Origin: Phycisphaera mikurensis
GTDB taxonomy: Bacteria; Planctomycetota; Phycisphaerae; WQYP01
Length of the DNA: 55,159 bases
Assembly (NCBI GenBank): GCA_022730455.1
Contig: DZDI01000005.1
Span: 1 to 55,159 of the forward strand
Direction of reading: 5' to 3'
Part shown: piece by piece, positions 24,843 to 29,544 of the stretch
Layout: each line of letters opens with the position of its first letter
Numbering within the stretch: position 1 is the stretch's first letter
Translations under genes and position numbers: made by a program
The notes under the pieces: generated by a model
The model's input: only the letters and a program-made list of their open reading frames with translations
What the model was told of the DNA's origin: nothing
The model's database searches: none

Positions 24843-24916
24843 GCGCCCGTAGCGCAATTGGATAGAGCGCGTGGCTTCGAACCACGAGGTTGCAGGTTCG
24901 AGTCCTGCCGGGCGCA
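24843..24916 (+). tRNA. tRNA-Arg (anticodon TCG)
   Basis: A complete cloverleaf of 74 bases. Acceptor stem GCGCCCG pairs with CGGGCGC, D-stem GCGC/GAGC-type arm with AATTGGATA loop, anticodon stem CGTGG/CCACG around CTTCGAA (anticodon TCG), T-arm GCAGG-TTCGAGT-CCTGC, discriminator A. CCA is not encoded. An accessory gene stretch begins directly downstream, as at many tRNA integration sites, but I found no copy of the 3' end that would mark attR. Confidence 0.95.
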
Positions 24917-25004: not shown

Positions 25005-25424
25005 TCAGGTGCCCGAATTTGGCTGCCACCAATGGAACAAGTTGGCGAGTCGCTTGCGGCTCTCATGGTCGGTAAGCAAAAGCCTGTTCGATTTTATCAG
25101 GCAGTGCTCCGGGTCCTCACCCGTGGGGGCTTTTTCTACATTGAAGCCCAACTGGATGACATCGTCCTGTTTGGCGAAACCAACGCGCGAATCGGCACTT
25201 GTGCGGCGAAGCTTGAGAAAGTTTTCCGCAGACTGATGTAGGCTCCCCATTGTGCAGGCGGTTACCGATATGCCATCTTCAATTCTCCCGGTGGCGTTAT
25301 TCCGCCGCGGTTTAAAATTTTCGCTCGTTATTCGGTGGGGCTGCTTACCTTGGAACTGAATACTGCCGGGTATGTGGCGTAGTAGAACGGCAACACCCGC
25401 TTCGTCCCTCGAGTCGGTCATCAT
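25005..25424 (-). CDS. Small protein, third gene of the TIGR04255 cassette
   Basis: 139 residues, family not recognised. Seen: a mostly soluble, charged protein with ITSENFKPRRNN near residue 35, a middle DDVIQLGFNVEKAPTGED segment and a C-terminal DHESRKRLANLFHWWQP. No membrane segment, signal or catalytic motif. It is judged real because the ATG at 25424 is preceded by CGGAG with 6-base spacing, it lies only 21 bases after the previous gene on the same strand, and the protein has ordinary composition. A plus-strand ORF over the same DNA (24759-25241) runs through the tRNA and is rejected. Function unknown; a partner of the two genes upstream is likely. Confidence 0.55.
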   Translation of the reverse strand: MMTDSRDEAGVAVLLRHIPGSIQFQGKQPHRITSENFKPRRNNATGRIEDGISVTACTMGSLHQSAENFLKLRRTSADSRVGFAKQDDVIQLGFNVEKAPTGEDPEHCLIKSNRLLLTDHESRKRLANLFHWWQPNSGT

Positions 25425-25445
25425 GTCGTCTCCGGACCGCCATAT

Positions 25446-25955
25446 TTACGGAAGCTTCTTCAGGTAGCGCATCAAGCGTTCGTCGTCATCTTGGCTGGGT
25501 GTCCCGTCGTAAAAGATGATGCCCCCATCAAAGTAGTCATTTTTCTGATATACGAACGTCACCACATCGGGCTTCTGAAATTCGATCTCGATTCCCTCGC
25601 GATCCGCTGCCTGCCAAGCGAGGAGTAGGCCGCCGTCGGGTGTGGGGCGTAAAAATGGTTCGGTAACATTCGGCAGGCGGTGGATTAGGGCCTCGACAAA
25701 TCCTGCTGCGGAGTTCAAGACTGCTTCGCTTGGCGCGGGCGAGCCTTCACCGTCCCAATCTGAATTTAGTTTCGCCAAATTCTGAAGCTGCGCGACGAAC
25801 GCTTGATACCAGGGCGCTGCCGATGAAGAGTTTCTCATCGCGTTGCTATCCGTCGACCAGCAAAGGAGGGCATCGGTAGGCGTGGTGACGTCGGATACAA
25901 ATCGCCCCTCGGATGCGTAGCCGGCGTGCGGATGATTACTGGTGTTCGTCAACAT
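25446..25955 (-). CDS. Small DWDG-motif protein, second gene of the TIGR04255 cassette
   Basis: About 169 residues, no named family. Seen: NLAKLNSDWDGEGSPAPS, an LPNVTEPFLRPTPDGGLLLAW stretch split by a loop, then EIEFQKPDVVTFVYQ and an acidic C-terminus (PSQDDDERLMRYLKKLP). Small proteins with a W-DG-GAP-P opening and a PT-DGG-LEW strand pair are common and uncharacterised in bacteria (from memory of the pattern, not a search). Start ATG at 25955 follows GGGGAATGGG and overlaps the TIGR04255 gene by 20 bases, so the two are translationally coupled. An ATG at 25970 is the alternative. No signal or membrane segment, so cytoplasmic. Confidence 0.65.
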   Translation of the reverse strand: MLTNTSNHPHAGYASEGRFVSDVTTPTDALLCWSTDSNAMRNSSSAAPWYQAFVAQLQNLAKLNSDWDGEGSPAPSEAVLNSAAGFVEALIHRLPNVTEPFLRPTPDGGLLLAWQAADREGIEIEFQKPDVVTFVYQKNDYFDGGIIFYDGTPSQDDDERLMRYLKKLP

Positions 25956-26778
25956 ATTCCCATTCCCCATGCATATCTGGACTGGTGAGGTCATAAAATC
26001 CATTAACAATCCATTCGTGGCCAAGATCAAGCCAAGCCAGTGCTTGGTCAGGTCCTCTCTCGGCAGGCATCCCGCGCGCCGTCAAACGAAATTCGATGAT
26101 GTTACGAGCATCTGGCGTTTCCAGTGGGCCGTGAATCAGCACGTGGAGCCGTCCGAGATTATTCTGGATCGGAAAGGCCGCAGTGTAGGTAATCCGGTCG
26201 GCCTGCGGCTGGAAACTGGAAGCGCGATCCCCCGATAGCTGCGGAAAGCAGCGTCTCGCTGCTGCGTGTACCGCTCCCGCCTCGTGTGAGATCGGAATCT
26301 GGTTTACATAGGTTACCTCACACTGGTTAATGGCCAACTGGCCAAGCCCGTGTTTGCGGATATGGTCCTCGAATTTTTTGAAATATTTTACAAAATTCGC
26401 CCTATTTTTTGTGTATGTGGGGTACTCCGCGGCCCCCGGCCTTGTACGCGCCCAGCCATGAATGAACCGGTCCCTCTGCAACTGTATACCGCCCTGGCCA
26501 TTTTCCAATGTTGTTGGTGACCGATACCACACCCGGGGCAACGGCAGATTGCCCCCAATTTGCCATTGGATCGGTGCCACGTGATAGCCTTGGGTGTCAA
26601 ATCGCTCGAAGGCGGGCGCAATCGGCTGGCGCTCTTCGACGATAGGGAATTCTTCTTTGACATCCAGCCAGAATAAACCAAAGTCGACCATACGTAAGCC
26701 GGAGAGGGGAGCAAACTGGACTGACAGCAAGGTCTCCACCAGAGGAGGTTTTGAAAATCTTGGCAGTGTCCTAGACAT
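25936..26778 (-). CDS. TIGR04255 family protein
   Basis: About 280 residues of a family defined only as sporadically distributed TIGR04255. Seen: the diagnostic opening FSKPPLVETLLSVQFAPLSG, then a central Q-R-DRF-HGW region, NQCEVTYVNQIP (a conserved strand with Y-N-I), and a C-terminal block LDLGHEWIVNGFYDLTSPDM that matches the family's usual H-I-F---T ending. Cytoplasmic, no signal. Function of the family is not established; it is typically found on mobile or accessory DNA. Start ATG at 26778 chosen as the first Met before the conserved N-terminus; an in-frame GTG at 26811 is possible and neither has a clear Shine-Dalgarno. First gene of a three-gene cassette. Confidence 0.8.
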   Translation of the reverse strand: MSRTLPRFSKPPLVETLLSVQFAPLSGLRMVDFGLFWLDVKEEFPIVEERQPIAPAFERFDTQGYHVAPIQWQIGGNLPLPRVWYRSPTTLENGQGGIQLQRDRFIHGWARTRPGAAEYPTYTKNRANFVKYFKKFEDHIRKHGLGQLAINQCEVTYVNQIPISHEAGAVHAAARRCFPQLSGDRASSFQPQADRITYTAAFPIQNNLGRLHVLIHGPLETPDARNIIEFRLTARGMPAERGPDQALAWLDLGHEWIVNGFYDLTSPDMHGEWEYVDEHQ

Positions 26779-27063: not shown

Positions 27064-27444
27064 GTGGACTATCATGTATCTTTTACATCAATACCTGTGA
27101 GGTGGATACAGTTATGCGACTTCCCCTGTGCTATGGCGTGCATACAAGGCGGAGATATAAAATGGGGCTTTGTATTCGAAGGATTTACGAGTAATCACAT
27201 CTTCTCGCCCAAGCGTGCCGCACCCCTTCGATCTATATCTGCCGTGGAATTCTATCAGCAAGACAGTGCATTAAAGGCTTATCGTGAAGGAACCGGTTGG
27301 GGCATCACCTCACAATGGTTTGATAGTGATCACAAAGGGACTGAAATTAGCGCGTCATATCTGGTTGTGCCTTCGACACAACAAATGCTCATACTCCTGA
27401 CGGCATCAGAAGATGATCTTCCGGAGGGTTCAGATGACGATTGA
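27064..27444 (+). CDS. Hypothetical protein in the accessory region
   Basis: 126 residues if the GTG at 27064 is used, 103 from the ATG at 27133; not recognised. Seen: a soluble protein with SAVEFYQQDSALKAYREGTG, GWGITSQWFDSDH and a hydrophobic strand SYLVVPSTQQMLILLTA before an acidic tail (EDDLPEGSDDD). No clear Shine-Dalgarno for either start. It is divergent from the TIGR04255 cassette. A second reading frame starts inside its 3' end behind a strong GGAGG, which suggests it was the first gene of a small operon that has since decayed. It could itself be a fragment. Confidence 0.4.
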   Translation: MDYHVSFTSIPVRWIQLCDFPCAMACIQGGDIKWGFVFEGFTSNHIFSPKRAAPLRSISAVEFYQQDSALKAYREGTGWGITSQWFDSDHKGTEISASYLVVPSTQQMLILLTASEDDLPEGSDDD

Positions 27445-27598: not shown

Positions 27599-28644
27599 TT
27601 ACCTCGACGCACCGTTGATAGCCGATTCCATCTCATCAAGGACGGCCAGAATTTGTTCAAAGGTCGGAACCGGACCAAAAATCATCTCCCGCATGTTCTG
27701 ATAATCCCGGCGAAGTTCGCCGAAGCGTGATTCAGGTGGAACAAGTCGAAGTGTGCCGGGGTGGGCCTTCGCGTATTGGGCTGATGCTGATGCGAAGAAA
27801 ACGCTTTTATGCGCGGCAACTTTGAGTAGCAATTCCGTGTCTTTCATAGCCTCATGACCGATGCCATGCTCATACATTCGAACCAAATCGTAATAATGGC
27901 GCGACTGCCGATCACGCAAAATCTTATTGGCCGGGGCGTGGTGCCAAGCGTGCAGGATCGTCGCCTTTTTTCAGAAGGTGCGTTCAGCCGCCAAAACATG
28001 CACGGAGCATGTGGGTGATTCAAAGATTGCTGGGAAATCCTCTGCTACGTATAGAAGCACTGTGCCATTACCCGCGGGCCAATGATCGGAACGAGCGCCG
28101 ATCTCCAAACGGACGACAGGGCCGATGTATGCTGGCTCTGTGTTCGATGTTGCCGTACCACTGACGGGATAGCGGAACACCAATGTCTGCTGATCGGTGG
28201 CGTCGCCAGCAAAGTTCAAAGCCCATGCTTCCCCGGCGACTTTACCAAGCGCACTGCCGAACGACCCACGAAGTTGGGGAAGAAGTGCGTCACGAATGAG
28301 TTCTCGGCAGATGTCCGTGAGCGAATCCAATCGCCTTTGACGGTGCTTGCCCGTCTTGGCGGCGGGATCGGAATTGCCGCTGAATCCCAAATCACTTTGG
28401 TTGAAGGATAGATCAATGTCTTCCGAAAATCGCTCTATCACTTTGAATACCTTGGCGAGCGATGTCCCCCCTTTAAAGAGTAATCCCGCTGGTGACGGGT
28501 TGAGCATACAGAGGCGTTTTAGTGTCCAACAGACCCAGAAATCTATTTCGATAATGGATGCACTCAATCCGTGTCACGCCGCGCCGCTACAGCGCGGAAC
28601 AGGTCGGCTCGATCGCTGGCTGATCGTTGTGCGAATTTATCCAT
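27599..28644 (-). pseudogene. abiEii: AbiEii/AbiGii-type nucleotidyltransferase toxin, broken twice
   Basis: Remains of a toxin of about 345 residues from a type IV AbiE system; the family transfers nucleotides to block growth during phage infection. Three pieces lie in order on the minus strand. From ATG 28644, MDKFAQRSASDRADLFRAV runs to about 28570. After a one-base loss the frame resumes with SASIIEIDFWVCWTLKRL and FKGGTSLAKVFKVIERFSED, holding the nucleotidyltransferase GGTSL and D-D motif. It stops at TGA 27971-27973 inside a conserved F-W-E-K-A-T-I-L-H segment, where the TGA stands for the Trp; reading on in the same frame gives AWHHAPANKILRDRQSRHYYDL and the rest to TAA at 27599. Both lesions are single-site, so decay is recent. 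The start overlaps the antitoxin stop by 8 bases. Confidence 0.85.
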
Positions 28645-29269: not shown

Positions 29270-29544
29270 AATAGCGGCCTCGTCAGAAAAGTGTATACGT
29301 TTTTCTGACAGACAGCAACCCTCTCGTTTTCGGTTGCCGATGGCGGGTGGGGCCAGCCAGCAGAGCCGTGTCATTCGATCTTTATCACCGAATCCCACCA
29401 TGTGTGATATGGTTGCGGCAGACTATATGGAATTTGGTAACAGGGCTTATAGCGTGCCGATCTGCCGATTTAGTGTAGTGATTCGATGAAAGTAAATACA
29501 ATATAGATGTCCTATTCATTCATTCTGAACCGATCCGCCGGCTG
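29270..29544. other. Intergenic, promoter side of the AbiE locus
   Basis: No gene is supported. It should hold the AbiE promoter; inverted repeats expected for AbiEi binding are not obvious to me (TCAGAAAAGTGTATACGTTT at 29282 contains a short GTATAC palindrome). Confidence 0.3.

Follow-up and report, generated by a model that had tools for sequence, protein, structure and literature searches.

Three small genes of Phycisphaera mikurensis, referred to here as T, D, and B, constitute a real operon that is found with constant gene order in scattered bacteria, and we considered the chances about even that this trio is a tripartite toxin-antitoxin-like module, with B as the effector, D as its partner or neutralizer, and T as an exchangeable control gene. 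In the window, that is, the whole analyzed stretch of 55,159 nucleotides, the trio occupies the minus strand. T, the first gene (positions 26778–25936, with its ATG at 26778), encodes a TIGR04255 family protein of 280 amino acids; D, the middle gene (25955–25446), encodes a DWDG protein of 169 amino acids; and B, the last gene and the candidate effector (25424–25005), encodes a 139-amino-acid protein. The initial annotation had reported three same-strand genes with a 20-base overlap and a 21-base gap, and these coordinates were confirmed, the overlap being between the T and D frames and the gap between D and B. Its assignment of T to TIGR04255 was likewise sound, with T scoring 52.7 bits against the NCBIfam profile (cut-off 30) over the full profile length (1–252). 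T alone of the three scored above a curated family cut-off; D gave a sub-domain match in PADLOC, and the window's own B gave no match in the searches with family and PADLOC profiles.

The recurrence of the trio was evident at both short and long distances. Among 150 sampled genomes of the same class, close homologues of B (48–55% identity) were present in four, each directly behind D and T, which supports the earlier reading of the 139-residue frame as a real protein. The close trios, with identities of 45–55%, belong to four other Planctomycetota MAGs (LSA5.bin36, SKS5.bin63, FK5.bin10, and LL4.bin22). Profiles made from these close trios together with more distant neighbors revealed T-D-B in identical order in many further genomes of Planctomycetota; the initial annotation had made its cassette depend on the three genes occurring together elsewhere, and they did so. 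All 28 distant operons that we tabulated showed one order on one strand with tight packing: T and D overlapped in 28 of 28, and the D-B spacing lay between −125 and +81 bases, usually no more than about 20, where the few large overlaps may stem from picking the first start codon. The pairwise distances of T, D, and B were correlated (r = 0.64–0.73; 0 of 2000 permutations), a pattern that can also reflect shared descent of the operon and is no proof of protein interaction. More divergent arrangements were also observed. Downstream of two apparently solitary T genes (L058 and L072) lie a divergent middle gene and a clear B, two others (L056 and L065) are followed by an abutting pair resembling divergent D and B, of which D scored weakly and B not at all, and in L063 T is followed by D and by a 291-amino-acid protein with a B match. 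As in tripartite toxin-antitoxin systems, the trio thus consists of three small, adjacent or overlapping genes that are inherited together.

We addressed the relationship of the trio to the PADLOC candidate PDC-M32 by profile comparison. D matched PDC-M32A (E = 4.6e-7) at profile positions 258–337 of 375, and hhalign gave 93.8% for the close D relatives and 98.5% for a broader D profile; these profile matches mark D as homologous to its C-terminal domain. For B, distant members of the family matched PDC-M32B in PADLOC. In hhalign, the profile of the closest five B sequences gave 0.4% with PDC-M32B, and a seven-sequence profile, to which two relatives from phage contigs had been added, gave 86%; close B proteins were linked to the B proteins of other trios with 68%, and the latter to PDC-M32B with 97%. 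Through this hhalign chain, B appears to belong with PDC-M32B as a distant relative. The initial annotation gave D and B no named domain; the matches of D and of distant B homologues to PDC-M32 show that the genes do have relatives. A relationship of T with the N-domain of PDC-M32A was rejected (hhalign 0.2%). As in the trio, a B-type gene lies directly behind the D domain in PDC-M32, in the same order; however, PDC-M32A fuses an N-domain to the D domain, whereas D in the trio is a separate gene with TIGR04255 in the front place. The trio accordingly lacks the fusion characteristic of PDC-M32A, its D covering the C-terminal stretch only. Because D corresponds to the C-terminal domain of PDC-M32A and B groups with PDC-M32B, we proposed that the trio would be a three-gene variant around the D-B pair of PDC-M32, in which TIGR04255 replaces the N-domain of PDC-M32A. 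PDC systems are unvalidated candidates (PMC12813430), and the sole paper found to name PDC-M32 records it from prophages of Sinorhizobium (PMC12429752).

The genes next to D and T indicated which parts of the operon are constant and which are exchanged. In 294 sampled Planctomycetota genomes, B lay directly behind D in 25 of 30 D places and T lay in front of D in 18 of 30, both counts being on the low side, as reading of the flanks added further B genes and at least one T gene that these searches had missed. D-B without T is also known, namely as PDC-M32A, with its N-domain fused to D, together with PDC-M32B. Since B follows D in 25 of the 30 places and T precedes it in 18, we regarded D-B as a stable pair and T as the exchanged component. 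Seen from T, 25 of the 69 T genes in the same 294 genomes led to D or B. In a set of 66 T loci, in which trios are overrepresented because the D search had supplied some of the loci, the downstream genes were D/B in 31, PIN in 9, HTH in 5, DUF7689 in 3, Fic in 1, and a family that we termed QGDI in 6. The PIN genes were confirmed with Pfam in the five cases checked, the HTH gene comes with a gene termed TQTCD, and several T operons of the non-D/B kind contain a small gene between T and the last gene. Two more TIGR04255 genes (L085 and L057) were observed on contig C98 of the same genome as the window; a small gene follows each, with Fic behind it in one case and PIN in the other. At seven loci (L027, L028, L034, L037, L040, L053, and L087), TIGR04255 is followed by a gene of the DUF7689 or the QGDI...TQSCDL family. 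The PIN and Fic families are both well known as toxins. Their position as toxin-type last genes in the sibling T operons is the main ground on which we read B as an effector and the operon as toxin-antitoxin-like, a reading inferred together from these operon siblings, the conserved residues of B, and a weak fold match.

Three residues of B, R16, S53, and H107, were invariant in an alignment of 34 divergent B proteins. In 11 B proteins outside this alignment, the serine and the histidine were present in all 11, and the arginine kept its column in 9 and was one residue later in the remaining 2. In the predicted structure of B, which is of fair quality (pLDDT 81, pTM 0.76), the three residues are located on strands 12–18, 52–58, and 107–112, respectively. 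Catalytic triads of ADP-ribosyltransferases (ARTs) sit on beta1, beta2, and beta5. The modeled positions of R16, S53, and H107 would match this triad layout, but R-S-H is non-canonical for an ART. These conserved residues could instead be structural, and T-D-B could be a structural or regulatory complex with a non-enzymatic B, as would be allowed by the finding that B has no significant homologue among enzyme families; we considered this improbable, given that three polar residues are the sole positions kept throughout such divergent proteins.

The fold comparisons pointed, with low significance, to the same kind of enzyme. Foldseek gave no PDB match for B below E = 1e-3. The most consistent fold neighbors were KptA/Tpt1 proteins (probability 0.2–0.85, E of about 0.1 to 1), with recurring entries from Thermococcus, Pyrococcus, and Aeropyrum and a best probability of 0.85; NarE and the cholera A chain ranked lower in the list, and aspartate kinase entries outranked KptA by E-value with low probability. 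The order of strands and helices in KptA/Tpt1 resembles that of the B model, but B lacks the N-terminal lobe, significant sequence similarity, and the same triad residues. In profile comparison with KptA, the seven-sequence alignment of B gave 9.7%, its score exceeding those of all 100 column-shuffled controls, and the remaining alignments gave 0.2–1.8%; thus, with less than 2% in all alignments but one, this comparison was not significant and added little independent support. A similarity of B to DUF952 was rejected (<1% by profile), and PDB sequence searches with T, D, and B profiles returned nothing significant. Taking the model and these matches together, we put the prospects of B being an ART-like enzyme at roughly even. 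The same KptA/Tpt1 resemblance would fit an RNA processing or repair enzyme, for example one that removes a 2'-phosphate, in which case the operon would be a non-toxic housekeeping or stress unit for RNA repair. This explanation seems quite improbable, as the trio is patchy in distribution and highly divergent compared with Ffh, and PIN or Fic genes hold the place of B behind other T genes.

The structure predicted for T by AlphaFold2, likewise of fair quality (pLDDT 82, pTM 0.83), had TBP as its best Foldseek match (E = 3.7e-5, probability 1.00) with a TM score of only 0.27–0.41; helix-grip proteins came after TBP among the PDB matches, and SecB was absent from the 50 best. T is accordingly predicted to have a duplicated TBP-like/helix-grip fold, which says little about function, and TIGR04255 was named in no paper found in a search of the open-access literature. 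In a tree of T proteins from Planctomycetota, 22 of the 28 trio T proteins fell in one half, which contained few other T genes. The trio label requires about 7 changes on this tree, a number that would be lower if L056 and L065, drawn there as solitary, are divergent trios. The trio T proteins are thus not a single clade, and the pairing of T with D-B was gained or lost on more than one occasion.

On this basis, we proposed a mechanism for the toxin-antitoxin-like reading. B would probably be a small enzyme whose core is ADP-ribosyltransferase-like (KptA/Tpt1-like), and it would act as the effector, with R16, S53, and H107 as its key residues. D would most likely be the dedicated partner of B, a neutralizing or holding domain, although it showed no similarity to any known antitoxin. 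T would be the front component, open to exchange, and would govern D-B, for instance by detecting a trigger or by keeping D stable. The toxicity and chemistry of B, neutralization by D, sensing by T, and a role in phage defense or plasmid keeping are what we infer and not direct observations.

The distribution of the trio was patchy: of about 23 genomes sampled from the family to which the window belongs, 8 had a D match. Compared with the window, genome G004 has an Ffh that is 91% identical and a T that is only 28% identical, the corresponding values for G024 are 81% and 48%, and G033, with 93% identity in Ffh, has no D match. The genes flanking the trios vary between genomes, and many are ordinary. 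On a plasmid of Mycobacterium paragordonae, a trio lies between a MobF relaxase gene and a type IV secretion gene. The trio is also present in two IMG/VR contigs, directly behind a phage-type integrase in one and between tail genes in the other. In the latter (L099:3932–5728), the trio is located within the tail module of the phage contig, flanked by an NlpC/P60-like gene and a large tail protein. Searches of INPHARED phage genomes with relatives of D, B, and T gave no match, and scans of viral contigs with D and B patterns gave none that was confirmed. These plasmid and phage-contig copies, in conjunction with the varied neighbors, fit horizontal spread of the trio. The earlier idea of a cassette is borne out: the trio recurs, has a patchy distribution, and is present in one plasmid as well as in phage contigs. 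PDC-M32 pairs are carried by plasmids as well; in a Limnohabitans plasmid (L097:3075–10892), such a pair lies amid RelE/ParE and VapBC toxin-antitoxin genes. Carriage of this kind, together with the PIN or Fic genes that end sibling T operons, would also be expected if the trio were an addiction module of plasmids or prophages without a defense role that is now stranded on chromosomes. We regarded this as rather unlikely, most trio copies being chromosomal among ordinary genes, in collections that themselves consist mostly of chromosomes.

The neighbors of the trio in the window contributed little to its interpretation. A tRNA-Arg gene (anticodon TCG; 24843–24916, plus strand) lies 88 bases past B on the opposite strand, and an AbiE pair lies upstream of T, with AbiEi at 29401–28637 and AbiEii on the minus strand at 28567–27971; both neighbors are at the sides of the trio given in the initial annotation. 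Between T and AbiE there is an open reading frame of 126 amino acids (27064–27444, plus strand) that had no match in Pfam or NCBIfam. AbiEii is apparently split across two reading frames of the minus strand, with a second piece at 27919–27599, so that the neighboring AbiE pair may be broken. The placement beside tRNA-Arg and AbiE had been taken as a clue to defense or mobility, and we gave it no weight, because the stretches surrounding four related trios (L076, L079, L080, and L084) contained no tRNA, the tRNA-Arg end was not repeated within the window, and PADLOC families were not visibly more frequent in 99 open reading frames beside trios than in 75 beside other T genes, a coarse comparison in which the first 25 families were listed for each set. 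An integrated element borne by the tRNA was rejected on the first two of these results, and a defense-island signal for the trio was not visible relative to the control flanks of other TIGR04255 genes. The tRNA and AbiE neighbors of the trio thus look incidental. The exact insertion site could not be read from related genomes, because DNA similarity stops right behind ffh in four relatives and no empty site is readable.

These results also bear on whether the trio is an anti-phage abortive infection system, in which T would sense a phage component and B would kill the cell or block translation. The closest precedent is CmdTAC, an anti-phage toxin-antitoxin-chaperone system whose toxin is an mRNA ADP-ribosyltransferase with the triad H-Y-[EDQ] (PMC11618068). 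Like CmdTAC, the trio has three small adjacent genes, and its effector is predicted to be ART-like; however, T is not SecB-like among the fold matches listed, no resemblance of D to CmdA came up in the general searches, and B has R-S-H where CmdT has H-Y-[EDQ], so CmdTAC would serve as an analogy only. The listing of D and B relatives under PDC-M32, the two phage contigs, one with the trio in a tail module, and the patchy distribution make such a system possible, but the flanks without visible PADLOC excess, the unvalidated status of PDC systems, and the fold of T leave it doubtful. Overall, a toxin-antitoxin or defense-type module, as suggested in the initial annotation, is the best reading of the trio.

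More broadly, it is conceivable, although we would place it somewhat short of an even chance, that TIGR04255 is the shared control module of previously unrecognized three-component toxin-antitoxin or defense operons with swappable effectors, namely PIN, Fic, and B as a new ART-like clade with R-S-H, among which PDC-M32 would be one branch. The TIGR04255 family, which is without an assigned function, would thereby gain a testable role at the head of operons whose last genes are of toxin type, and the PDC-M32 candidate would gain a specific, testable mechanism involving R16, S53, and H107 of B, with D as the defined partner.
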